Positions 2,048-31,655 of a DNA stretch of 39,544 nucleotides are shown here, piece after piece. Position 1 is the stretch's first letter, and every line of letters begins with the position of its first letter. Position numbers and translations under genes: made by a program. The stretch spans positions 1 to 39,544 of the forward strand of contig JAHIZT010000039.1 in NCBI GenBank assembly GCA_018814355.1, in the 5' to 3' direction. The notes beneath the pieces were generated by a model. It saw only the letters and a program-made list of their open reading frames with translations, did not search any database and had not been told where the DNA came from. This DNA is from Candidatus Thermoplasmatota archaeon. Its GTDB lineage: Archaea; Thermoplasmatota; Thermoplasmata; UBA10834.

Positions 2048-3340
2048 TCACGAGGCTTCTCTGAGCTCGAGCCTTTTCCTCTTGTCTATCGCCTTCTCAG
2101 TTCTGAAACTGAGGACAGTCGCAATGATTGTCGTGCCAAGAATGACAATGAGAGTGGTGTTGAGGAACAATGCCGTCAAATCGAGGTCCTGCGGCAAATC
2201 AGGCGCGCCTACCAACAAGGCCGCGGCTCCCGTGGCTAGTACTGCAGCTGCCAATCCTCGAGGCATCAGAGCGAACAACGCAGACGAGTCCTCCTTAGGA
2301 AGAATGCCTATCCTGCTCGTGGCAGAAGATGTGATCCACCGAACTGCCACGATTACACACAACATCGCGATACCGACAGTGAGCTGCAGTCCGTCTATGG
2401 ATCCGAATTCGAAAAGCAAACCCATGTAGACGAAGAAGAAGGTCCGTATGAAGAAGGTAATTTCTGCGTGGAAACGCTGAATCCTGTCGTCATAGCCACC
2501 TGAAAGGTACACAGAAGAGATTTGTCTTTTCACGAAACCGCGGTTCCCTATTGACAGGCCAAGAGCCAAGGCTGCAATCGCGCCCGAGCTACCGACTAGT
2601 TCAACCGCGCCTGCAACAAGGAACAGCACGGCGATTGTCAACATGTAGGCAAGAGGTTGCCTTTGAAGTAGCTGAAGAGCATATAGCCAGAGCACTCCAA
2701 CTCCGAAGCCTATCAGCGCCCCACCCAAGAAGTCGAATGCAAGATCTCCAGCAAGGTTCATTGCGTCGAACTCGCCAACTCTCACAATCGTGAGCAGGGT
2801 AATTGCGGCGAGAATGACCAAGACATCTGTGAGAGCCGACTCAACTACTAGAATGGATCTTGTTGAGGGCTTGATCCTCAGTCTGCACGCAATGGGAATC
2901 ACTATCGCGCCACTTGTTCCTCCGACTATCGCTCCCAGGCTCAGGGCAATGTAGATGCTCCCGCCAATCGCAATGTAGATTACGGCTGCGACTGCCATCG
3001 CTGTAAGCAGAAACGTTACGACTGCCATGAAGAGCGATAGCCTCATCGACTCGAACACGGCCCTTATGTCCAAGGTCAAGCCTCCATCGAAAAGAATCAT
3101 TACGAGCGCCACGGAGAGGAACAGATCCCTGTAATTGTTGAATTCATCTAGAGTCTCAGTCGTAAGAAGGTGGAGCCTACCTCCAAGAATGGTCGGTCCG
3201 AGCAGGATTCCGACAAAGACAAGCAAGAGCACGTCAGGTACCTTGTATCTCTTGAATATCAAGTTGCCAAAAAATCCGATGAACACAACCGCGCCGATGG
3301 CCAGGAACGCGACTATCGTGTTGTCATCCATTTTCCGCAC
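2048..3340 (-). CDS. Cation:proton antiporter (NhaP/CPA family)
   Basis: The protein has 430 residues and is almost wholly hydrophobic, with about 12 predicted membrane helices. It begins with the GTG at 3340, though an ATG three codons inside (giving MDDNTIV) is equally good. Features of the monovalent cation/proton antiporter family include the early segment VPDVLLLVFVGILLGPTILGG, the FDGGLTLD loop and a central VESALTDVLVIL helix carrying a conserved acidic residue. It would exchange Na+ or K+ for protons across the cytoplasmic membrane. It lies 58 bases after another antiporter and 1.4 kb after a CBS regulator on the same strand, so the three probably form one operon controlling cation or pH balance. 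Ion specificity cannot be judged. Confidence 0.85.
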   Translation of the reverse strand: MRKMDDNTIVAFLAIGAVVFIGFFGNLIFKRYKVPDVLLLVFVGILLGPTILGGRLHLLTTETLDEFNNYRDLFLSVALVMILFDGGLTLDIRAVFESMRLSLFMAVVTFLLTAMAVAAVIYIAIGGSIYIALSLGAIVGGTSGAIVIPIACRLRIKPSTRSILVVESALTDVLVILAAITLLTIVRVGEFDAMNLAGDLAFDFLGGALIGFGVGVLWLYALQLLQRQPLAYMLTIAVLFLVAGAVELVGSSGAIAALALGLSIGNRGFVKRQISSVYLSGGYDDRIQRFHAEITFFIRTFFFVYMGLLFEFGSIDGLQLTVGIAMLCVIVAVRWITSSATSRIGILPKEDSSALFALMPRGLAAAVLATGAAALLVGAPDLPQDLDLTALFLNTTLIVILGTTIIATVLSFRTEKAIDKRKRLELREAS

Positions 3341-3398
3341 CGTTCTTTTTCAATCCACTTGTTCATGGACAGCTCAGGACTGACCACGCGGTGTCCTC

Positions 3399-4691
3399 CT
3401 ATCCGCGCAGTCGTTCGACTACAGCATCTTGTTCTGCTCCCTGTCGGGGCTCCACAGGACAGGCTTCTTCTGATGTGGGAGTCCCTCTCATTGACCTCCT
3501 GAGCAGAAACGGCGTGAACACAGCCGTCAGAAGCCCCATCAGTATGATCACGGAATAAATCTCCTTGGAGATAATCCCGATTGTCAGGCCGTACAGTCCA
3601 ATGATCATTGCCACCTCCAATCTTGGCGACATTCCAATACCTATCGAGATGGAGTCTCGTTTTGATAATCCAAGCAGGCGTGCAGGAATGCTACAACCTG
3701 CGATTTTCGAAAGAAACGCCACGACCGTCAGCAATGCTGCGAACAGCCAGGCGGTTCCCGATATCTCTCCAAGGTCAACAAGAACCCCAAGGGACACGAA
3801 GAATATCGGTGCAAAGACCATCTCCAGGACTGAGAGCTGTCTCTTGTAGCTCGACCTGAACTCACAGCGTGCAAAACTAGTCCCTGCGACAAAGGCTCCT
3901 ATGATTGCGGAAATGCCTATGGCTTCAGATACGACAGAGTAGACGAAGGCAATGCACAACGCCAACAGAAACCCGCTCTCCTCTATACCTCTCTCCAGGC
4001 CTCGCTTCTGGACAGCAGCAATTCCCTTCGCGATATACTTGGAGCCGATATAGGCTCCCAAGCCGACAAACGCTACTGAAGCGAACACAAGAAGAAACAG
4101 TTCCCAGAGGTCGATGCCCGCCCCTGTTGCGGTTCCCTCCGAAACCCCGAGCACGACCATCCCGAGCACATCGTCGACCACCGCAGCACCAAGGAGGATC
4201 TTCGCGGTATCGGATCCGATGACTTTCATCTCGCGAAGAACCCCGGCAGTGATTGCCACGCTCGTTGCCACCAGGGCGGCGCCTATGAAAACGGATTGTG
4301 AGAACTTGTCGTAACCGATGCCCGGTTCGGGGAGCATCAATTCTGCCAGACCGAAGCCGCAGACCCACGGGACGATGACGCCACCAAGCGCAATGGTCAT
4401 AGAGCGCTTTGTATAGATCTCCTTGATATCACATTCGAGGCCAATCATGAACAGAAGCAAGATGGCGCCAAGATTCGCCAATTGCTCCACCAGATTTCCA
4501 GTTTCTGTCCCACCAACCGAGATCACGCCCAAAACACTCGGTCCAATCACAATACCAATCACTAGTTGTCCGATGATCTTCGGCTGCCTGAACCTTGCGA
4601 ACAGGAAGCTTGAAGCTATGGCCACAGAGAGCAGAAGTGACAACTGCAGCCACAGATTGTCTACTATTGCGCTCCAGATGCCCTCGAGCAT
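3399..4691 (-). CDS. CPA2-type cation:proton antiporter (KefB/NapA-like)
   Basis: The protein has 430 residues with about 12 membrane helices, the usual size of a CPA2 antiporter without a C-terminal TrkA-N domain. The N-terminal half has RQPKIIGQLVIGIVIGPSVLG and GAILLLFMIGLECD. The middle has the ion-site motif AAVVDDVLGMVVL with its paired aspartates, the mark of electrogenic NapA/KefB relatives. A short polar tail follows the last helix. It is the middle gene of a three-gene run; the upstream CBS protein may sense adenine nucleotides and adjust this transporter or its expression. The stop codon is TAG. Confidence 0.88.
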   Translation of the reverse strand: MLEGIWSAIVDNLWLQLSLLLSVAIASSFLFARFRQPKIIGQLVIGIVIGPSVLGVISVGGTETGNLVEQLANLGAILLLFMIGLECDIKEIYTKRSMTIALGGVIVPWVCGFGLAELMLPEPGIGYDKFSQSVFIGAALVATSVAITAGVLREMKVIGSDTAKILLGAAVVDDVLGMVVLGVSEGTATGAGIDLWELFLLVFASVAFVGLGAYIGSKYIAKGIAAVQKRGLERGIEESGFLLALCIAFVYSVVSEAIGISAIIGAFVAGTSFARCEFRSSYKRQLSVLEMVFAPIFFVSLGVLVDLGEISGTAWLFAALLTVVAFLSKIAGCSIPARLLGLSKRDSISIGIGMSPRLEVAMIIGLYGLTIGIISKEIYSVIILMGLLTAVFTPFLLRRSMRGTPTSEEACPVEPRQGAEQDAVVERLRG

Positions 4692-4768: not shown

Positions 4769-5542
4769 TCAGCCACGCCTCTGACGTTTCATTACTTCGC
4801 TTCCGAGGAGAAGGATCTCAAAGCCGTTGAGCTCCCCGACGAGCGTGTTATGCTCATCAATGACAGGCAGGTCTTCAAGGCCGTGCTTCTTCATCTTCTC
4901 CAACGCCGCCAGCAGCCTGTCGTCCTCGGTGACTGTCACAGGCTTCGTCATGTATTCCTCGACCGAGAAAGGGAGGGGGATTCGCTTGGACCGCGGCTGC
5001 TGCCGCCCTTTCTCGAAAAGCGATAGTGAACCCTGGATTGCAGCCAGCATTTCTGTGAGTCCTATCATTCCGATGAGCCTTCTCTTGTCGTCAACGACAT
5101 ACGCACTCCTTGTCCTTGGGTCGGCCAACACTCTGTCGACGACCTCGTGCAGGCGCATGCCCTTCGTGACCACGATGGGGTTGGTCACGACAAGCCTGTA
5201 TGCATCCCTCACGAATCTAAATGAGAGTTCGTCGGCCATCCGTTCAAACATACCAACGCTCAACTCCCTCTCCACCAGATTGAGCACACTCTTTCCAAAT
5301 GAGGTTAAGCCGAACTTCTTCCATGTCCTCCGCCCAGGTTCCAATTGAGAAACGACTCTCCTCTCATCCAGTTCCTTCAATGCGGTGCCGACGTTCTGAA
5401 TCGAGCGACCTGTGTCACGTGCGATTTCGGAGGCGCCGAGGTACTGGTTGTGGGCGTAACATCTGAAAGTGACAAGCCTTCGATCTGACATGATTATCCA
5501 TCTTGCAGTGTCCTTTGCAGCGTCCTTCATCCTCTGCTCCAT
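4769..5542 (-). CDS. Winged-helix and CBS-pair protein
   Basis: The protein has 257 residues. Residues about 20-90 form a winged-helix DNA-binding segment (ASEIARDTGRSIQNVGTALKELDERRVV is the helix-turn-helix). A short linker follows, then two CBS motifs: one around TNPIVVTKGMRLHEVVDRVLADP and RLIGMIG, the second around EYMTKPVTVTEDDRLLAALEKM and TLVGELN. CBS pairs usually bind adenosine nucleotides. As first gene before two antiporters it is the likely regulator of the set. Two in-frame Met codons follow the first and the exact start is uncertain. I infer a transcription factor; a cytosolic channel regulator is the alternative. Confidence 0.78.
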   Translation of the reverse strand: MEQRMKDAAKDTARWIIMSDRRLVTFRCYAHNQYLGASEIARDTGRSIQNVGTALKELDERRVVSQLEPGRRTWKKFGLTSFGKSVLNLVERELSVGMFERMADELSFRFVRDAYRLVVTNPIVVTKGMRLHEVVDRVLADPRTRSAYVVDDKRRLIGMIGLTEMLAAIQGSLSLFEKGRQQPRSKRIPLPFSVEEYMTKPVTVTEDDRLLAALEKMKKHGLEDLPVIDEHNTLVGELNGFEILLLGSEVMKRQRRG

Positions 5543-5609
5543 ATTCTCACGATTCTCTATCTCGAATTTCTCTCAGACATTCGGTCTGTCGTGATAATTA
5601 CGGCCAAGG

Positions 5610-5618
5610 ATTTAATAG
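5610..5618 (+). promoter_or_regulatory. TATA box of the dehydrogenase/B12/AsnB operon
   Basis: The element ATTTAATAG lies in an AT-rich patch between two divergent genes. It would place the transcript start near 5636, downstream of the GTG at 5591. That argues against the longest reading of the dehydrogenase and for a start at 5651 or 5720. Confidence 0.5.
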
Positions 5619-5719: not shown

Positions 5720-6838
5720 ATGCCGTACAAGAAAAGAAAGAGAGAGAGGAAGCCAACTTTCGCAGTCCTAGGAGCGGGTCACGGAGGCTTGGCGATGGCA
5801 GGCCATCTAGCGCTTCTTGGATTCCGCACGCGGCTCTGGAACCGATCGCGGGAGAGAACAGACCATGTCTCAGACCGCGGAGGAATAGAGCTGGAGGGCG
5901 TGATAGAAGGTTTCGGACAGGTGGAGCTGGCCACGGACGACATTGGTGCCGCAATCGATGGAGCGGATGTGATTATGGTGGTGGTCCCTGCAACGGGGCA
6001 CAGAGACATAGCCAAGCTGTGCGCGCCGCATCTTAGCCGCAACCAAGTCGTAGTCCTGAATCCAGGAAGGACTTTCGGAGCGCTCGAGTTCCTTAAGGTG
6101 CTCAACGAAGAGGAAGCCTCAGCCACTCCCACATTGGCGGAGGCCCAGACTTTCATCTATGTGTCTCGCCACACGGATTTCGCGCACGCGCGGATAATGC
6201 AGATCAAGAACTCCGTCCCTCTGGCGGCAATCCCCGCGCACAAGACGCCGGAAGTTCTGGACATCGTCCGAAAGGCCCTTCCCGAATTCGTAGCAGCAAC
6301 AAACGTCCTAGAGACGAGCCTCGACAACATAGGAGCTATCTTCCATCCGACCCTCACGATCCTCAATGCATCCAGAATAGAATCCACTCACGGCGACTTC
6401 GAGTACTATCTTGAGGGTGTCTCCCCTTCGACGGCGAGAATCGTCGAAGCCGCGGACATGGAGCGCGTGGCATTGGGGACAGCTCTTGGCGTGCACCTCC
6501 ACACAGCTAGGGAATGGCTCTATCTGGCCTATGCTTCTGCTGGTAGGACGCTTCATGATGCTATCCAGGCCACCCCAGGCTACAAGGGGGTCAGAGCTCC
6601 ATCGACGCTGACCCACAGGTACATCCTCGAGGATGTCCCGATGAGCCTCGTGCCGATGGTCTCAGTTGGCAAGTTGCTCGGGGTGAAGACCCCCACGCTC
6701 AACGCACTCATTCATATGGCTTCTCTGATTCACGCTCGCGATTTCTGGGCCGAGGGCAGGACTGTCCAGAAGCTAGGTCTTGCCGGGATGTCAGTTGAGG
6801 ATATCCGAATGCTTGCCGTCAGAGGAGTATCAAAATGA
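5720..6838 (+). CDS. NAD/NADP octopine/nopaline dehydrogenase family protein
   Basis: The protein has 372 residues from the ATG at 5720; an ATG at 5651 would add 23 residues of low-complexity Pro/Thr-rich sequence, and a GTG at 5591 lies upstream of the likely transcript start. The N-terminal Rossmann fold opens with FAVLGAGHGGLAMAGHL, the GxGxxG dinucleotide site just inside the start, as usual for the family. The C-terminal half has the helical opine-dehydrogenase domain, including the block DNIGAIFHPTLTILNASRIE with its conserved His, and YLEGVSPSTARIVEA. Family members reductively join an amino acid and a 2-oxo acid to a secondary amine, or run this backwards. It overlaps the next gene by four bases (ATGA), which indicates translational coupling. 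The substrate is unknown. Confidence 0.85.
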   Translation: MPYKKRKRERKPTFAVLGAGHGGLAMAGHLALLGFRTRLWNRSRERTDHVSDRGGIELEGVIEGFGQVELATDDIGAAIDGADVIMVVVPATGHRDIAKLCAPHLSRNQVVVLNPGRTFGALEFLKVLNEEEASATPTLAEAQTFIYVSRHTDFAHARIMQIKNSVPLAAIPAHKTPEVLDIVRKALPEFVAATNVLETSLDNIGAIFHPTLTILNASRIESTHGDFEYYLEGVSPSTARIVEAADMERVALGTALGVHLHTAREWLYLAYASAGRTLHDAIQATPGYKGVRAPSTLTHRYILEDVPMSLVPMVSVGKLLGVKTPTLNALIHMASLIHARDFWAEGRTVQKLGLAGMSVEDIRMLAVRGVSK

Positions 6839-8496
6839 GAATCCTGGCAGCTTCCATAGGCAATTGCGTCCACACCGCTGGCATTCAGGCCTTCCTGGAA
6901 ATAGCCCGCACTCTCGGACACGATACTGTATTCCTCGGTCCAGCGGTCCCCGTAGATAGGCTTGCTGAAGCCATTGTCGAGCACAAGCCCGATGCCGTGG
7001 CCGTGAGTTACAGGCTGACCCCCGAAAGCGCAAAGGTGATTTTCGACGAGCTGCAATCTGAGATCACCAGGAGCCCGGACATAAAGAAAAACAGGAAGTT
7101 CTTCTTCGGTGGGACGCCTCCAGTAGCGGCCCTCGCCGTCAAGACAGGCATGTTCGATACATGCTTCGACGGCAGCGAACCGGAGAAAGCCGTTGTGGCA
7201 CTTCTCCAAGGGACCCCCCTGGTAAAGAGTGCATCCGAGTACGCCTCGGACCTTGTTACTAGGGTTCAGAGCTCTCAACCGCTGCCCCTTGTTCGACATC
7301 ATTTCGGGCTTCCATCGATGAAGGACACGATTGAAGGCGCCAGGAAGATCGCTGAGAGCGGCCTGTTGGATATCCTCTCGATAGCACCGGATCAGAGCGC
7401 ACAAGAATCCTTCTTCAGGCCTCGGGAGATGGACTCGCGCCTCGATGGTGCCGGAGGCGTCCCTCTGAGAAGCCCCGCCGACCTCCAAGCGCTATACGAG
7501 GCGACAAGAACAGGCAGCTACCCCCTGCTCAGGTGCTACAGTGGCACAAGAGATCTCATCAGATGGGCCGAGATGCTGAAGGACACCATCAACACAGCAT
7601 GGGGTGCGGTCCCTCTCACCTGGTACAGCGAGCTCGACGGCCGCTCCAAAAGGACTCTGAGGGATGCGATTGCAGAGAACCAGCAGGCCATGAAATGGTA
7701 TGCTGAGCACGGGATTCCCGTGGAGGTCAACGAATCCCATCAATGGGCCCTGAGGCGTTCAGGCGACGTCGTGGAACTCGCGACAGCATACCTCGCGGCG
7801 CACAACGCGAAAGCTCTCGGCGTCAGAGACTACGTTTGTCAGTTCATGTTCGACACTCCAAAAGGCATCTCGCCCGCAATGGACATCGCGAAGATGCTCG
7901 CCAAGCTCGAGCTCGTAGAGTCCATCAAGAACGGCGAGTTCAGGGTAATCAGGATGGTCAGATCTGGTCTGACCTCGTTCTCCTCGTCGGCCAATGTCGC
8001 GAAGGGGCAGCTGGCGGCTTCCGTATACGCCGCCATGCCCCTGAACCCTCACATCGTCCACGTTGTGGGCTACAGTGAGGGGGATCATGTGTCCACGGCA
8101 GAAGAGGTGATCGAAAGCTGCGAGATCGCCCAGGGAGCAATCATGAAGGCTCTTCTCGGTGGGGTGAGACCGGAGACCGATCCAAAGGTCATGGTCAGAA
8201 AGGCAAGCCTCATCGAAGAGACTCGGTACCTGCTTGATGCGATCAAACGCCTGAAGAGAACCAACTCACATGATCCGCTCACATCCCCGGAGACGATAGC
8301 CGAGGCGATCAGGGAAGGATTACTCGATGCATCGGATCTTCGCGGGAGCGGAGTGGCCCGGGGAAAGATAGTGACATCCATCGTCGATGGAGCCTCCGTG
8401 GCGATCGGTTCCAACACTGGAAAGCCAATCACGGAGAAGGAGCGCATCCAGGAACTTGCAGTATGCGAACACGACCTTGATCTCGCCGAGATTTGA
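6835..8496 (+). CDS. B12-binding, glutamate-mutase-like fusion protein
   Basis: The protein has 553 residues. Residues 1-130 are a cobalamin-binding Rossmann domain. The signature DxHxxG appears as CVHTAG, keeping the cobalt-ligating His but with Cys for Asp; exactly 41 residues later comes SYR(L), then a GG (FFFGGTPP) about 30 residues on, as in base-off/His-on B12 domains. Residues about 150-460 form a barrel-like domain whose order of blocks (LLRCYSGT, HGIPVEVNE, LAAHNAKALGVRDYVCQFMF) recalls glutamate mutase E. A fused GlmS-GlmE order would fit, but the catalytic part is shorter than the usual 480 residues. A carbon-skeleton mutase on an amino acid is inferred; a B12 carrier for methyl transfer is possible. 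It sits between the coupled dehydrogenase and an AsnB-like gene. Confidence 0.65.
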   Translation: MRILAASIGNCVHTAGIQAFLEIARTLGHDTVFLGPAVPVDRLAEAIVEHKPDAVAVSYRLTPESAKVIFDELQSEITRSPDIKKNRKFFFGGTPPVAALAVKTGMFDTCFDGSEPEKAVVALLQGTPLVKSASEYASDLVTRVQSSQPLPLVRHHFGLPSMKDTIEGARKIAESGLLDILSIAPDQSAQESFFRPREMDSRLDGAGGVPLRSPADLQALYEATRTGSYPLLRCYSGTRDLIRWAEMLKDTINTAWGAVPLTWYSELDGRSKRTLRDAIAENQQAMKWYAEHGIPVEVNESHQWALRRSGDVVELATAYLAAHNAKALGVRDYVCQFMFDTPKGISPAMDIAKMLAKLELVESIKNGEFRVIRMVRSGLTSFSSSANVAKGQLAASVYAAMPLNPHIVHVVGYSEGDHVSTAEEVIESCEIAQGAIMKALLGGVRPETDPKVMVRKASLIEETRYLLDAIKRLKRTNSHDPLTSPETIAEAIREGLLDASDLRGSGVARGKIVTSIVDGASVAIGSNTGKPITEKERIQELAVCEHDLDLAEI

Positions 8497-8514
8497 TTCA
8501 TTTGGTGAATGGAA

Positions 8515-9990
8515 ATGGAAGGGATTGCAGGCACATTCGGAATGAGAGACAAACACCTCGTGAGAATGATGCTGGAGAAGCTCGAGCACAGGGGACCCGA
8601 CGCATCAGCAGTGTATGCTGACGATGCTCTCGTTCTCGGGGCCAGAAGGTCGAGACGAAGCCCCGTCGAAAAGACCGCAGCGATTGCACAGGAGGATGGA
8701 GTTGCTGTCGCATGCGATTCATACATCTTCAACAAAGAGTTGTTGCGAAAAACAATTGCCCCGAACTGTGACGGAAGTGTCTCAGACGCACAGCTCGTGC
8801 TCAACATGTATAGAACGATGGGCACTCCCATCTTCCGTTACATTGATGGGGCATATGCCATAGTCATCGTTGACTGTGGCAAGACCATTGTTGCAAGGGA
8901 CAACTATGGTCTTAAACCTCTCTATTTCTCGGGAGACGCGAGCAGGGGCGTATACTCTTCCGAGATCAAGTCCCAGCAACTCGCAAAAGAGAGATTCACC
9001 CCCTTCCCGCCCGGAAAGATGTTTGTCTCCGGGGACGGTTTCAGAAGAACCGTGAGGCAAGGAATCCCTTGGGCCAAAAATCTCAACCCCAAGCGTCCCG
9101 TGGATAGAGTCCGTCAGCTCATAATGGAGAGTGTGTTGGGCTGTGTCGAAGATTCCAGCGGGTTCAACGTTTTGCTCAGCGGAGGTATCGACAGCAGCGT
9201 TATTGCTGCAGCTGCTGCTGAGACGGCATTGAGCATACAAAGTGTCTGTGTAGGGACGGAAGATAGCGAGGACATCAAAATGGCTCGATTGGTCGCGGAT
9301 TACCTCGGGACTAGGCACAAGGAGCGTATTTATGATGTCGAAGACATGCTCGAAGTCCTCAGCGACGCAATATATTATGGGGAGACCTTTGACTTTCCTT
9401 TAGTGAGAAGTTGCATCCCAAATTACATGGCTACACATCTTTTCGCAGACAGAGACAGAATCACTCTCTGCGGTGAGGGAGGAGACGAGATATTCGCAGG
9501 ATACGACTTCCTATTGGGCGTCAAGAAGGATGAGGCGCTAAGATTGGAGAGGGTCGCCCTGCTCAAGGATGGCCACATGACCGGATTCCAGAGAGTCGAT
9601 AGGATGACAGCGTCTGCCTCTCTGGACGGGAGAATGCCTATGATGAGCAATCAGGTTGTGGATTATGGTCTTCGGCTGGGTAGGAAGGCATTGCTCAGAT
9701 CTAAGGTCGAGAAGAACAAACTTGTCCTTCGCAAAGCCTTCGCGGATCTCTTGCCGAGGCAGGTTACATGGAGAAGAAAGAGGAGGTTTGGCGAAGGCGC
9801 TGGCTCCATCAACTCTCTTGTCGGGTATTCGGAGAAGCTCATATCTGACAAGGAGTTCGAGAGAGAACGGAGACTCCTGCCAAGAAGCAGAATCAGGACC
9901 AAGGAGGAGCTGTTGTACTACAGGGTCTTTCAGCGTCACTTCCCATCGGAGAGCGCACTAGCCTCAGTTGGATTCACACCGCGCTCATGA
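8515..9990 (+). CDS. AsnB-like amide synthetase lacking the glutaminase Cys
   Basis: The protein has 491 residues from the ATG at 8515, which has GGTGA six bases upstream; an ATG two codons earlier is the alternative. The layout is that of class B asparagine synthetase: an N-terminal Ntn domain (MEGIAGTFG, EHRGPDA, ARDNYGLKPLYF) and a C-terminal synthetase domain with the PP-loop LLSGGIDSS, GEGGDEIFAGYD and the late KLVLRKAFADLLP...EGAG region. Normal enzymes start MCGIAG, with Cys2 as nucleophile; here residue 2 is Glu, and the NGEIYN-like glutamine-site motif is also altered (CDSYIFN). It therefore should not hydrolyse glutamine. Beta-lactam and carbapenam synthetases lost the same Cys and make amides within one substrate. 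It follows the B12 gene by 18 bases, so it should act in the same pathway. Confidence 0.8.
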   Translation: MEGIAGTFGMRDKHLVRMMLEKLEHRGPDASAVYADDALVLGARRSRRSPVEKTAAIAQEDGVAVACDSYIFNKELLRKTIAPNCDGSVSDAQLVLNMYRTMGTPIFRYIDGAYAIVIVDCGKTIVARDNYGLKPLYFSGDASRGVYSSEIKSQQLAKERFTPFPPGKMFVSGDGFRRTVRQGIPWAKNLNPKRPVDRVRQLIMESVLGCVEDSSGFNVLLSGGIDSSVIAAAAAETALSIQSVCVGTEDSEDIKMARLVADYLGTRHKERIYDVEDMLEVLSDAIYYGETFDFPLVRSCIPNYMATHLFADRDRITLCGEGGDEIFAGYDFLLGVKKDEALRLERVALLKDGHMTGFQRVDRMTASASLDGRMPMMSNQVVDYGLRLGRKALLRSKVEKNKLVLRKAFADLLPRQVTWRRKRRFGEGAGSINSLVGYSEKLISDKEFERERRLLPRSRIRTKEELLYYRVFQRHFPSESALASVGFTPRS

Positions 9991-18313: not shown

Positions 18314-18487
18314 TGGTTTGCGATTCTCCTCCAGCTCAGCTAGTTGGGGGGTGTACTGATATGATAGACGTCCGAGAATAAATCGCTTTTCCAATGGAAA
18401 TGATGCGATGTGTGCATCATAGCAAACAACGTTATCCATACTGGCTCGTAGAAACCCAATGGAAAGTTCGGCTTTAGGTCGAATATG

Positions 18488-18495
18488 CTTATATC
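18488..18495 (+). promoter_or_regulatory. TATA box of the OCD/AlaDH-family gene
   Basis: CTTATATC would start a transcript near 18517. This excludes the TTG/ATG at 18485 as start and supports the ATG at 18533 with a leader of about 15 bases. Confidence 0.5.
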
Positions 18496-18532
18496 CGCGC
18501 TACAGATTGCAGCGTTACGGAGTAGATTCGGG

Positions 18533-19555
18533 ATGTCGTCACAGCACGCTCAGGTCAAAACTTTGATCCTAACAGGGAAGCAGGTCAAGAAGCTCCTGGA
18601 CATGAAGGACGTCCTTGGCGCTGTCGAGAACGCATTCAGGCACAAGGGGCTGGGAAAGGTCCAGATGCCAGCCAAGGTGTACCTTTTCTTTGAGAAGTTC
18701 GACGGAGACCTAAGGACCATGCCCTCGTACGTCGAGGACATGGAACTATCGGCGGTCAAGATAGTGAACGTCCATCCGCAGAACGCAAAGAACTACGGTA
18801 TGAGGACTGTCATGGCCGTGCTTGTCCTGGTGAACCCGCACACTGGCCAGCCGCTGGCGTTCATGGACGCCACGCACATCACCGACATGAGGACGGGCGG
18901 TGCGGGCGCGATATCCTCGAAATACCTGGCAAGGCCGAACCCGAAGATCCTGGGAATCATAGGGGCAGGAAACCAGGCCAGGGCTCAGATGCTAGCAATG
19001 ATCACGCAGTATGGGCACTTCGACGAGGTAAGGCTCTTTGACATCTACCCCGAGAAGAGCAAGGCCATGGCTCGTGAGTTCAGGCGCCACTACAAGGAGC
19101 AGATCGGCAAGGTCAAGGTGGCGAAGGAGGCCAAGGACTGCGTTGTCGACTCTGACATCGTGGTCACGGTCACATCCGCACGCTCTCCGATCGTTCTTGA
19201 TGAGTGGGTCAAGAACGGCACACACTTCTGCTGCATTGGAGCCGACGCTCCGGGCAAGCAGGAGATGGACCCGAAGATACTCAAGCGCGCACGCCTGGTG
19301 ATAGACGACTGGGAGCAGGCGTGCCACTCCGGTGAGATCAACGTCCCGCTCTCCAAGGGCGAGATGACGAAGGATGATGTGGACGTGGAGATCGGGCACA
19401 TAGTCGCAGGCCTGAAGCCTGGCAGGGAGAATGACGAGCAGATCACTGTCTTCTGCTCCACTGGACTCGCCATCCAGGACTGCCTGACGGCGAAGCTCGC
19501 CTACGACGCGGCCATCCAGCAGAAGATTGGCAGAGCGATGCAGATCGTTCTCTGA
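18533..19555 (+). CDS. Ornithine cyclodeaminase / alanine dehydrogenase family protein
   Basis: The protein has 340 residues, the normal length of the mu-crystallin/OCD family. It begins with MSSQHAQVKTLILTGKQVKKLL. The substrate half holds MPAKVYLFF and a central THITDMRTGGAGAISSKYLAR block with the conserved Arg-Thr-Gly. The Rossmann motif is ILGIIGAGNQARAQML. C-terminal marks are the VTSARSPI strand and the late CSTGLAIQD stretch. Members include ornithine cyclodeaminase, archaeal alanine dehydrogenase and imine reductases; the closest known archaeal case is the alanine dehydrogenase of Archaeoglobus. I cannot tell which reaction applies. A single-gene unit. Confidence 0.87.
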   Translation: MSSQHAQVKTLILTGKQVKKLLDMKDVLGAVENAFRHKGLGKVQMPAKVYLFFEKFDGDLRTMPSYVEDMELSAVKIVNVHPQNAKNYGMRTVMAVLVLVNPHTGQPLAFMDATHITDMRTGGAGAISSKYLARPNPKILGIIGAGNQARAQMLAMITQYGHFDEVRLFDIYPEKSKAMAREFRRHYKEQIGKVKVAKEAKDCVVDSDIVVTVTSARSPIVLDEWVKNGTHFCCIGADAPGKQEMDPKILKRARLVIDDWEQACHSGEINVPLSKGEMTKDDVDVEIGHIVAGLKPGRENDEQITVFCSTGLAIQDCLTAKLAYDAAIQQKIGRAMQIVL

Positions 19556-25182: not shown

Positions 25183-25818
25183 GTGCAAGGACGACATGTG
25201 GACATCTACGTCGATGAGAGTGGCGACCTGGGGTTCTCATGGCCCCGGAGTTCCAAATACTTGATAGTCGCAATGCTTGCTACTAGTGATAGTAGGCAGC
25301 TTCACAGGATTATGAAGCGGGCGCGAAGTAGATTCCGCGATTCACGGTATCCCGGTGGCGAGTTCAAGTTCAACCGGGAATCAGATGTCGTAAGAGTCTT
25401 CTTCATGGAGGCACTGGGGAAAGCAAACTGTGCAATCACGTGGACCGCTGTTGACAAGATGAAACCGCGGAGACGTTTCACAAGGGGGAGTGACCTCTAT
25501 GATCTTGCGTGCGAGGAAACGCTTCGCCAGATGTCCAGAGTGTTGGAGGCGGGTTCAATCGACATGATAATGGACTGCAGGAGATCCAAGACTAAACAGA
25601 GGCGGAATCTCGAGTCTCTGATGAATCGTGTTCTCATGTCAAATCATCCTGGTCATTTTCCGCCCGAATTGACGATAAGACACCTCGACTCTGAGAGCTG
25701 TGTGGGTCTCCAAATCCATGATTTCGTAGTAGGATCGGTGTTTCAGAGGGTCGAACGAATGAACGAACGTTATCTAAGAATCATAGAGGGAAGAGTCACA
25801 TCCTACCGAATCATCTAG
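25183..25818 (+). CDS. DUF3800 protein, copy A (intact)
   Basis: The protein has 211 residues from the GTG at 25183. The family signature opens it: HVDIYVDESGDLGFSW, a strand ending in Asp-Glu-Ser-Gly-Asp. Other marks are FKFNRESDVVRVFFMEAL, the SIDMIMDCRR strand with an Asp, and the closing LDSESCVGLQIHDFVVGSVFQ. The acidic residues ending strands suggest an RNase H-like metal site, but this is inference; the family has no settled function. A second, broken copy lies 5.8 kb downstream. Start, upstream palindrome spacing and downstream folded element match between the copies. Flanking genes are unrelated chromosomal genes, which points to insertion of a unit. Confidence 0.85.
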   Translation: MQGRHVDIYVDESGDLGFSWPRSSKYLIVAMLATSDSRQLHRIMKRARSRFRDSRYPGGEFKFNRESDVVRVFFMEALGKANCAITWTAVDKMKPRRRFTRGSDLYDLACEETLRQMSRVLEAGSIDMIMDCRRSKTKQRRNLESLMNRVLMSNHPGHFPPELTIRHLDSESCVGLQIHDFVVGSVFQRVERMNERYLRIIEGRVTSYRII

Positions 25819-29648: not shown

Positions 29649-30860
29649 TTAGACCGATCCCGCGGCGGCCCAATAGGCGTACAGGAAGTCCTCCCAGCCG
29701 TCGGCCATGAAGGAGTAGGCCCAGTAGTAACCGGGCGTCTCCCACGAATGGTTGGGGAAGACTATCCCAAGCCCGTTGATCTGGTGGTCCATTGTGTTGG
29801 TAGTCTGGACCGCCAGGACGGTCTTGTCGAAGTTGGCGAGCACGAGCGCGCAAGCGTCCTTGACCGCGCTCGACCGAGTGTTCTTAGCGATGAGCTCGAC
29901 GAACCGCTTGAAATCTACCAGGTTGATCGAGTTCGCAGCGTACGAGAAGCACGCTCCTCCTCTGGACTTCGAAACGATTCCTGCGTTGGCCTTCATGTCC
30001 TGCATCAGGAGCTCCGTGAGGTCGAAGAACGATGCGGCTGTCGCTCCCACGGCTGCGAGATCGACCGCAGCGTGGCCGTTGACCTCCTCACCCATGTACG
30101 GGGGCACTGACAGCAGCTTCTGGACCTCGTCTATGAACATGATCGAAGCCTCCCTGGGCGTCATGTACGGGTTCTCCACCAGTCCTCTGAGGGTCGCGTC
30201 GTACGGGTACCCTCTCCAGCCGGTGAATGTCTCACTGACGAGCAGGTACTGCGTGTTGAGTCCTCCCTTGAGCCACTGGTATGCGACGTCTATCTGCCCC
30301 ACATTGCACTCGTCCGTGCCGATCACATCCACGTGGTAGCCCTTGAGGGCCAGAGTGACTTCGTCGATCGTCAGCGCATCAGCCGGGTGGTCGTCCCAGG
30401 CAACCATACGAGGCGAGCCGTGATCCCAGAACATCAGCACTGTGTGCTCCGCAGGGGCGGCCTTGAACGTGTAGGAGATCAGGGAACGGAGTGTCATCGG
30501 GTCGCCCATGTTGGCCTCTTTGCCGTTGAGGGCGAAATCCTTGAGCTCCACCATCTGTCCTGGCAGAACCCTGAAAAGATTCGCAGGGCCGTCGAACCTG
30601 TCAGCGAAGACGAACATCGCCACGTCCTTGGACCCGCCGACGGACATAAGCTCGTCGTAGTCGCTCTCGACTACGGGCTCGTGATGCGCGCCCGCATACA
30701 CGTCCAGGCTATTGTCAGCGTCCAGATAGAGGATGTACCTCCACTGGGCCACATCGGGGCCCTTCCCGGCAGGCGGGCCCGCCTTCGCGACTGGAATCGC
30801 GAGCATGCCCACGACGACGATCAACGCTATCAGAGACACCACTAATGCTTTAGCTCTCAA
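29649..30860 (-). CDS. Secreted clostripain-family (C11) cysteine protease
   Basis: The protein has 403 residues. It starts with a TTG behind GGGAGGGG, a strong ribosome site. Residues 1-27 are a signal peptide (RAKALVVSLIALIVVVGMLAIPVAKA), and the mature part begins near GPPAGKG. The peptidase fold has YILYLDADNSLD, the catalytic His147 in WDHGSP and Cys185 in GTDECNVGQ. The remaining half holds TFTGWRGYPYDATL and ends with aromatic-rich FPNHSWETPGYYW. Clostripain-type proteases cut after Arg or Lys. It should act outside the cell on peptides, as seen in protein-degrading archaea. The gene is monocistronic. Both catalytic residues are kept. Confidence 0.85.
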   Translation of the reverse strand: MRAKALVVSLIALIVVVGMLAIPVAKAGPPAGKGPDVAQWRYILYLDADNSLDVYAGAHHEPVVESDYDELMSVGGSKDVAMFVFADRFDGPANLFRVLPGQMVELKDFALNGKEANMGDPMTLRSLISYTFKAAPAEHTVLMFWDHGSPRMVAWDDHPADALTIDEVTLALKGYHVDVIGTDECNVGQIDVAYQWLKGGLNTQYLLVSETFTGWRGYPYDATLRGLVENPYMTPREASIMFIDEVQKLLSVPPYMGEEVNGHAAVDLAAVGATAASFFDLTELLMQDMKANAGIVSKSRGGACFSYAANSINLVDFKRFVELIAKNTRSSAVKDACALVLANFDKTVLAVQTTNTMDHQINGLGIVFPNHSWETPGYYWAYSFMADGWEDFLYAYWAAAGSV

Positions 30861-30900: not shown

Positions 30901-30957
30901 CCCGAATGGCGACTTGATTATTTATGGATGTTGTGAGACGACGCTGCGCCATTCGGG
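30901..30957. repeat. 11-bp inverted repeat upstream of DUF3800 copy B
   Basis: CCCGAATGGCG at 30901-30911 is matched exactly by CGCCATTCGGG at 30947-30957. The 35 bases between include TTATTTATGG, a TATA-like element. The right arm is 6 bases from the 16-bp palindrome. A close variant of the right arm (GCGCCATTCCG) recurs in the folded element after the gene, near 31691. Copy A has no such pair. Confidence 0.5.
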
Positions 30958-30963
30958 CAGGGA

Positions 30964-30979
30964 GCACTACATGTAGTGC
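30964..30979. promoter_or_regulatory. Perfect 16-bp palindrome upstream of DUF3800 copy B
   Basis: GCACTACATGTAGTGC is a perfect palindrome ending 34 bases before the GTG start, as in copy A. The central CATG is common; the arms differ from copy A but complement one another. Confidence 0.6.
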
Positions 30980-31013
30980 AAGAGACGAACCTGCTGATGT
31001 CCACCTTGGGATT

Positions 31014-31655
31014 GTGACCCAGGGCGTCTTGGACGTCTTCGTAGATGAGAGCGGAGACTTCGGCTTCTCCCACAAGGGAGGTTCCCAGCATATCGTCATG
31101 ACCGCAATGGCCACGGACAACGCCGCTGTCCTGGGAAGACTGGCAAAGAGAGCTCGGAGGAAGATGAGTATCCAAGGAATGACCGCCCAGGAATTCAAGT
31201 TCAAGGGGAGCTCGGACTGGATGCGATTTCACTTCCTGAGGGGGATTGCAGAAAGCAATTGCGAGATATCGTGGGTGGGGGTCCGAAAGGAGAACGTATG
31301 CGAGAAATACGTAGAACGGAGAGAGCTACTATACCAGCTCATGTGCAGAGCTGTCTTAGGACCTGTCTTCAAGAGAGTCCGCGGGAACACAGTCAACATT
31401 GTATTTGACAGACGGACCGAGAAATGGCTTCTGTAAATCGAACTCGACCTCTTTGTCGGGAGCATCATGTCCCAGAACTGCTCAGGCGCCTTCCCGCCCA
31501 GGTTGAAAATCAGACACGTCGACTCACGAAGATCTCCGCAGCTCCAAGCCAACGATTTCGTGACAGGCGCGCTCTTCCAACTTGTAGAGAGGGAGAACGC
31601 ACACTACTATGACGTAATTGGCGAACGAGTGGTTGATGGTACTCTTATCATCTAG
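31014..31655 (+). pseudogene. DUF3800 protein, copy B (nonsense codon)
   Basis: The frame starts with GTG and reads VTQGVLDVFVDESGDFGFS, the same start layout as copy A (GTG ten codons before the Asp of DESGD). It is open to a TAA at 31434-31436 and then continues in the same frame without further stops to 31655: EKWLL, stop, IELDLFVGSIMSQ, and later RHVD, LQANDFVTGALFQ, ending with Ile-Ile and TAG as in copy A. The lone in-frame stop falls where copy A has a Gln/Arg-rich helix. Full length would be about 213 residues. I call it a recent pseudogene; read-through or a sequencing error is possible. It differs strongly from copy A, so it is not a new duplicate. Confidence 0.75.

Follow-up and report, generated by a model that had tools for sequence, protein, structure and literature searches.

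A gene trio for an opine dehydrogenase, a B12 mutase-like protein and an AsnB-like enzyme, conserved in archaea and bacteria, and its possible role in making an amidated opine

The stretch of DNA analysed here (the window, 39,544 nucleotides) is contig 39 of the genome of a Candidatus Thermoplasmatota archaeon (2.06 Mb in 135 contigs). It carries three co-directional genes, whose products are an opine dehydrogenase, a protein resembling adenosylcobalamin (AdoCbl)-dependent mutases and an AsnB-like carboxyl-activating enzyme. The 3' end of the dehydrogenase gene is joined to the start of the mutase gene by an ATGA overlap. The AsnB-like open reading frame opens at 8509, but its relatives begin at the equivalent of its second Met (8515), and we therefore place the start there, which leaves a gap of 18 bases after the mutase gene. 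The features of the locus are as follows:

5608 to 5618, plus strand: TATA-like element upstream of the trio, GGATTTAATAG, read from the sequence.
5720 to 6838, plus strand: opine dehydrogenase (P0001), with a match to Octopine_DH PF02317 (E=5e-48, 163 bits against a cut-off of 30), an end-to-end alignment with the Arthrobacter N-(1-D-carboxylethyl)-L-norvaline dehydrogenase 1bg6 (E=4.7e-81), the residues R117/G205, and the catalytic residues H209 and D305.
6835 to 8496, plus strand: AdoCbl-dependent mutase-like protein, assigned by PF02310, by comparison of its predicted fold with the PDB and by hhalign to GlmE.
8515 to 9990, plus strand: AsnB-like carboxyl-activating enzyme (P0003) with a dead glutaminase domain, assigned by PF00733 (E=1.8e-47), by NF006949 and by its active-site residues.

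An initial annotation made from the sequence alone had named these three genes, their overlap and spacing, and the TATA-like element, and all of them are borne out here. It is plausible that a single promoter serves all three genes. The same annotation knew of no described pathway that combines these genes, and we likewise found none in the open-access literature searched.

The three genes are kept together. The mutase is present in nine of the 19 genomes of the same GTDB family, the window's included, and in all eight relatives that have it the mutase gene is preceded by the dehydrogenase gene and followed by the AsnB-like gene, with two of these loci cut by contig ends. The ten family genomes without the mutase are also without this type of dehydrogenase, the single hit among them (G017) belonging to another subfamily from which the residue signature discussed below is absent. 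A wider search covered 297, 296 and 389 genomes from the phyla of an Aminicenantes genome, a Bacteroidales genome and the host, respectively, and found the mutase only sporadically (12/297, 4/296 and 5/389 genomes), with some of these proteins falling in a divergent clade. For the main clade outside the family, which reaches other archaeal groups, Acidobacteriota and Bacteroidota, the AsnB-like gene adjoins the mutase gene in 12 loci and the full trio is present in 11, the twelfth locus (L054) starting inside the mutase gene. The conserved co-occurrence that the initial annotation proposed to look for is thus found well beyond close relatives. No mutase relative was found in the plasmids searched.

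Trees of the three proteins show the same groups, with pairwise distances correlated at r 0.85-0.93 when the divergent locus L055 is excluded; with all loci included, none of 2000 permutations reaches the observed congruence. The arrangement is far beyond chance, and its contiguity, the congruent trees and the joint absence within the family argue that the trio is lost or gained whole. Gene families of archaeal type (EMG1/NEP1, DUF1246/1297 and KaiC) lie beside orthologous loci and identify the host as an archaeon. Archaea and bacteria that are unrelated to one another inherit the trio as one block, and we consider it possible, at clearly less than even chances, that a pathway for a novel solute has spread horizontally with it.

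The first protein shares its fold and its catalytic His and Asp with ArODH/CENDH (1bg6), and its identity to ArODH is about 40%. The nucleotide-fold motif GAGHGG occupies residues 18-23, and H209, D305 and W266, which align to H202, D297 and the Trp of ArODH, are invariant among the dehydrogenases. All 25 dehydrogenases also carry the pair Arg111/Gly198 (1BG6/ArODH numbering; R117 and G205 in P0001). A study of opine dehydrogenases from hot-spring metagenomes, again with about 40% identity to ArODH and the same fold and catalytic residues, showed that Arg111 together with Gly198 confers specificity for L-Asp and L-Glu, and that a double swap switches specificity in both directions (PMC10787698); many of the 25 dehydrogenases share further positions listed there. 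The published enzymes preferred pyruvate as the keto acid, most of them preferred NADPH, and turnover was slow, with a poor kcat/KM for L-Asp of about 0.04 per s per mM. Given the invariant pair and these swap data, the trio dehydrogenase probably makes the N-(1-carboxyethyl) derivative of an acidic amino acid, a chemistry that is well supported by its residues. With so low a published kcat/KM for Asp, a different acidic amino acid, such as 3-methylaspartate, may be the natural amine partner. Basic amine partners (ornithine and lysine), which the initial annotation had listed among the amino acids to try for AdoCbl-dependent conversion, have been set aside as unlikely on the strength of the Arg111/Gly198 pair. 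The metagenomic enzymes were isolated, read-assembled sequences reported without an operon, partner genes or a physiological product, and the trio would give a physiological context to opine dehydrogenases that have been used until now just as biocatalysts.

The only domain that Pfam detects in the second protein is the N-terminal B12-binding domain PF02310 (52 bits against a cut-off of 32). This domain spans residues ~1-130 (motif CVHTAG) and is followed at residues ~135-540 by a barrel resembling the epsilon chain of glutamate mutase. An AlphaFold model built from a four-sequence alignment has a predicted local distance difference test score (pLDDT) of 75.5, and among the chains ranked by Foldseek its best structural match is the glutamate mutase epsilon chain (E 2e-13). 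Alignment to 6h9e_B/1cb7_B with VIA-align gives Z 32.6 and 3.0 Å over 358 residues; the next barrels are those of lysine 5,6- and ornithine 4,5-aminomutase (Z 27-28) and of the CoA mutases (Z ~21). A 17-member mutase profile aligned by hhalign to nine GlmE sequences matches over the whole barrel (probability 95, E 3e-8); a GlmE profile made from one sequence gives a weak local match. PF06368 is matched weakly in four of the 17 members and is without a match in the window genome. Judged by its model and profile, the second gene product combines GlmS-like and GlmE-like parts on a single chain, in which the B12 domain comes first.

It is important to note where this protein departs from GlmES (1cb7, 6h9e). 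It shares the epsilon barrel, the Rossmann B12 domain and an equivalent (E415) of Glu330, the residue that contacts adenosine in glutamate mutase. It differs in its single chain and domain order, and it has CxHxxG in place of the base-off/His-on motif DxHxxG in the main clade, with His13, Gly16, SYRL and GG of the motif retained; the divergent clade (27-31% identity) keeps the canonical DxHxxG. Glutamate mutase holds the glycyl moiety of its substrate with R66 and R149, with E171 at the amine, and the acrylate part with R100 and Y177 (PMC9545868). In the profile alignment, R66 maps to H156, E171 to G257, and R149 to R233, or to Y235 if the region is read ungapped; R100 has no aligned counterpart, its gap lying beside Q190. 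Four other arginines (R154, R270, R307 and R376) are new and invariant. Because the claw residues R66/R100/R149 and Glu171 are not conserved, we do not file the protein as a glutamate mutase. Loss of the contact to the amine, together with the extra arginines, suggests a bulkier, N-substituted tricarboxylate as its substrate, which a broken claw would fit. AdoCbl carbon-skeleton mutases are few, and we know of none that acts on an opine. A mutase subfamily that rearranges the carbon skeleton of such a secondary-amine tricarboxylate, where known mutases act on a free amino acid or a CoA ester, and contributes to a new class of amidated compatible solutes in archaea and bacteria is a reading that we put forward tentatively.

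In the third protein the PP-loop and the active-site Glu, Asp and Lys are present, and its two-domain layout and SGGxDSS loop are those of AsnB (1ct9) and AsnB-like amidotransferases, so that the enzyme class is well supported by sequence. The best curated match of P0003 is NF006949 (asparagine synthase B; 334 bits, below the cut-off of 499), and some Acidobacteriota members score above that cut-off. As the initial annotation had observed, the catalytic Cys is missing in the window, where it is replaced by Glu, and other residues of the glutamine site are lost as well (Asn74 to Asp, Gly75 to Ser and Glu76 to Tyr). The intact set Cys1/Arg49/Asn74/Gly75/Glu76/Asp98 is found only in five Acidobacteriota operon members; archaeal, Bacteroidota and other members have lost these residues in differing ways, leaving the glutaminase dead in the archaeal and Bacteroidota proteins. 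By this residue pattern, the missing Cys is a trait of certain lineages and does not define the family.

Two further motifs bear on what this enzyme might do. The Glu of the asparagine synthetase motif G-E-x-x-D-E is present in all members (GEGGDE in P0003). The Thr pair of the motif D-V-T-T-I-R, which handles aspartate in asparagine synthetase, is replaced in 19/19 aligned members (D-F-P-L-V-R in the window protein), and the C-terminal tail of AsnB is absent. The retained Glu and the intact glutaminase of the Acidobacteriota favour amidation with ammonia over closure of a lactam, and the third step is most likely an ammonia amidation of something other than plain aspartate. Synthesis of N-acetylglutaminylglutamine amide (NAGGN; TIGR03104) offers a parallel, since there too a small gene set makes a compatible solute and an AsnB-type enzyme amidates the acidic precursor in the last step. 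It differs in having no dehydrogenase or B12 step, and P0003 scores far below the TIGR03104 cut-off.

We believe that these observations can be joined into a three-step route. The dehydrogenase would use NAD(P)H to join Asp, Glu or 3-methylaspartate (L-) to pyruvate, giving an N-(1-carboxyethyl) amino acid, which is an opine with three carboxylates. The fused B12 mutase, whose class of chemistry is suggested by its fold, would then rearrange the carbon skeleton of this N-substituted amino acid, most simply by a glycyl migration of the type that converts glutamate to 3-methylaspartate. Finally, the AsnB-like enzyme would adenylate one carboxylate and cap it with ammonia to yield a carboxamide, with the ammonia drawn from glutamine in Acidobacteriota and presumably taken up as free ammonia where the glutaminase is dead, as in this archaeon. 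The end product would be an amidated opine serving as a compatible solute or as a similar metabolite of ion or osmotic homeostasis. That the operon encodes such a route, in which an N-carboxyethyl acidic amino acid is rearranged and amidated for use as a solute-like metabolite, strikes us as having an even chance of being right. Of the products imagined in the initial annotation, a branched N-carboxyalkyl amino acid is retained as probable, with a rearranged skeleton, on the residue signature and the mutase fold. Activation of a carboxyl group also stands, and of the two outcomes offered for it amidation is favoured over cyclization. Nothing points to the suggested metallophore or cofactor.

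The physiological part of this proposal comes from neighbouring genes, which in the window include the following:

4769 to 5542, minus strand: helix-turn-helix (HTH)/CBS-domain protein, candidate regulator, divergent from the trio (CBS E=2e-17; orthologues in relatives).
2048 to 4691, minus strand: two genes for antiporters of the Na+/H+ exchanger family, context outside the core (PF00999, E=2e-39 and 7e-62).

In five relatives (L069, L070, L071, L072 and L073), the CBS-HTH orthologue lies next to the trio and is read divergently from it. A gene for a MarC-family membrane protein lies directly 3' of the trio in six bacterial loci (L050-L054 and L060), which extends the operon in bacteria to four genes or more, and in three of the six a DUF389 gene follows MarC; DUF389 also occurs near L052. 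CLC channels are encoded near L050, L052 and L060, and a mechanosensitive channel (MscS) and a trehalose-6-phosphate synthase are encoded next to the trio in L061. The presence nearby of MarC, CLC, MscS and trehalose synthesis, Na+/H+ antiporters and the CBS regulator suggests a compatible-solute or ion-stress role for the product. If the pathway operates in both domains of life, it predicts that microbes of sediments and hot springs contain an abundant metabolite that has so far escaped detection. In a separate observation, the dehydrogenase of L055 (L055:7680-9299) has a PTS (phosphotransferase system) EIIA type 2 domain fused at its N-terminus, which suggests control that depends on phosphorylation.

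Several observations weigh against the proposed route and its solute role. The mutase of the main clade has Cys where the B12 motif should have Asp, and the archaeal genomes yielded no adenosyltransferase of the PduO type, in a search that did not cover the CobA type. The mapping of the claw relies on an alignment of about 15-19% identity and on the four-sequence model, in which some active-site loops are of low confidence. Poor activity of the published dehydrogenase relatives with L-Asp leaves the identity of the amine loose. The ion-related neighbours vary by lineage, and their support is a raw count of occurrence in the loci examined. Two Aminicenantes loci have the dehydrogenase and mutase with TldD/PmbA and no AsnB, and at L062, from Bacteroidota, the genes sit in an operon for exopolysaccharide that also encodes an ATP-grasp ligase, such that the end product or its use varies. 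Taken with L086, these exceptions indicate that the dehydrogenase and mutase form a core pair that can feed other end steps.

These exceptional loci deserve description in their own right. The Aminicenantes TldD/PmbA genes form a metalloprotease pair that follows dehydrogenase or dehydrogenase-mutase genes (L012:9620-12393, L013:2202-4981 and L095:241-3032), with AsnB absent from all of these places. The L062 operon (L062:1-12001) combines an opine dehydrogenase (38% identity), a divergent B12 mutase, the ATP-grasp ligase and a DegT aminotransferase, and is a candidate for an unusual amino-acid decoration of a glycan. Beside a mutase fragment in L086 (L086:1108-3222) are genes resembling ornithine racemase (Orr, 370 bits against a curated cut-off of 480) and D-Ala-D-Ala ligase; the racemase-like gene is found there despite the acidic-amine signature of the dehydrogenases.

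Given such loci, it seems appropriate to ask whether the same first two steps instead produce a building block that is placed on a polysaccharide, the cell envelope or a peptide and is not a free solute. The L062 pair shares its operon with a sugar transferase and a Wzz-like protein as well as the DegT and ATP-grasp genes, and the Orr-like and Ddl-like genes of L086 and the Aminicenantes TldD/PmbA genes point the same way. However, L062 belongs to the divergent clade, no glycan genes adjoin the trio in the examined loci of the window's family, and the neighbours of the main clade are dominated by MarC and ion transport. We consider this alternative unlikely, though it is the strongest of those weighed here.

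Turning again to the three-step route to a free solute, one could question whether its last gene belongs to it at all. The third gene might be the cell's plain asparagine synthetase, with its position incidental, as its best curated match and the high-scoring Acidobacteriota members would allow; the only other clear Asn_synthase protein in the window genome has 259 amino acids and no glutaminase domain (L074:6747-7526, contig 116). This view is improbable given that the gene keeps its place in both archaea and bacteria, that the trees agree and that the Thr-Thr pair is replaced in every member. Other, larger AsnB-type proteins are present in the Acidobacteriota hosts, so that asparagine there does not have to come from the trio.

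Two further alternatives question the direction or purpose of the dehydrogenase step, and we give each little chance of being correct. In a fermentative scheme, the dehydrogenase would re-oxidize NAD(P)H with pyruvate, as the alanopine-type enzymes of marine invertebrates do, and the other two enzymes would process the resulting opine. The hosts are probably anaerobic sediment lineages, and the published relatives prefer pyruvate (PMC10787698), but those relatives are slow and mostly prefer NADPH, and an amidation that consumes ATP together with a B12 step would be costly for a redox sink. In a catabolic scheme, the dehydrogenase would run oxidatively and the mutase would pass the released acid to central metabolism. 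Opine dehydrogenases and mutases are reversible, and symporters for amino acids or dicarboxylates lie near some loci (L057-L060), but the AsnB-like step is biosynthetic and no enzyme of methylaspartate breakdown is among the neighbours scanned.

The analogy to beta-lactam and carbapenam synthetases drawn in the initial annotation fares worst: beta-lactam synthetase, which is related to AsnB and lacks the Cys, acts on an N-(2-carboxyethyl) amino acid, P0003 is an AsnB fold without the catalytic Cys that matches 1jgt, and a 1,2-shift by the mutase from an N-(1-carboxyethyl) to an N-(2-carboxyethyl) amino acid could precede lactam closure, but P0003 lacks the Tyr/Glu dyad of 1jgt and 1q15 (the Tyr of GYGAD is Glu and the second dyad Glu is Arg) and its Acidobacteriota operon orthologues keep a complete, working-type glutaminase that points to ammonia, and we have rejected this route as very improbable.

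Other features of the window lie outside the trio. An ornithine cyclodeaminase/mu-crystallin family gene (18485-19555; PF02423, E=2e-101), which may encode an enzyme acting on amino or imino acids, adjoins a TsaD/Kae1-like gene. A DUF3800 protein is encoded at 25183-25818, and a short open reading frame 5 kb away (30924-31436) has the same VDESGD-F motif and is perhaps a paralogue. Between them, at 29649-30860, this archaeal genome encodes a peptidase of the clostripain family (C11).

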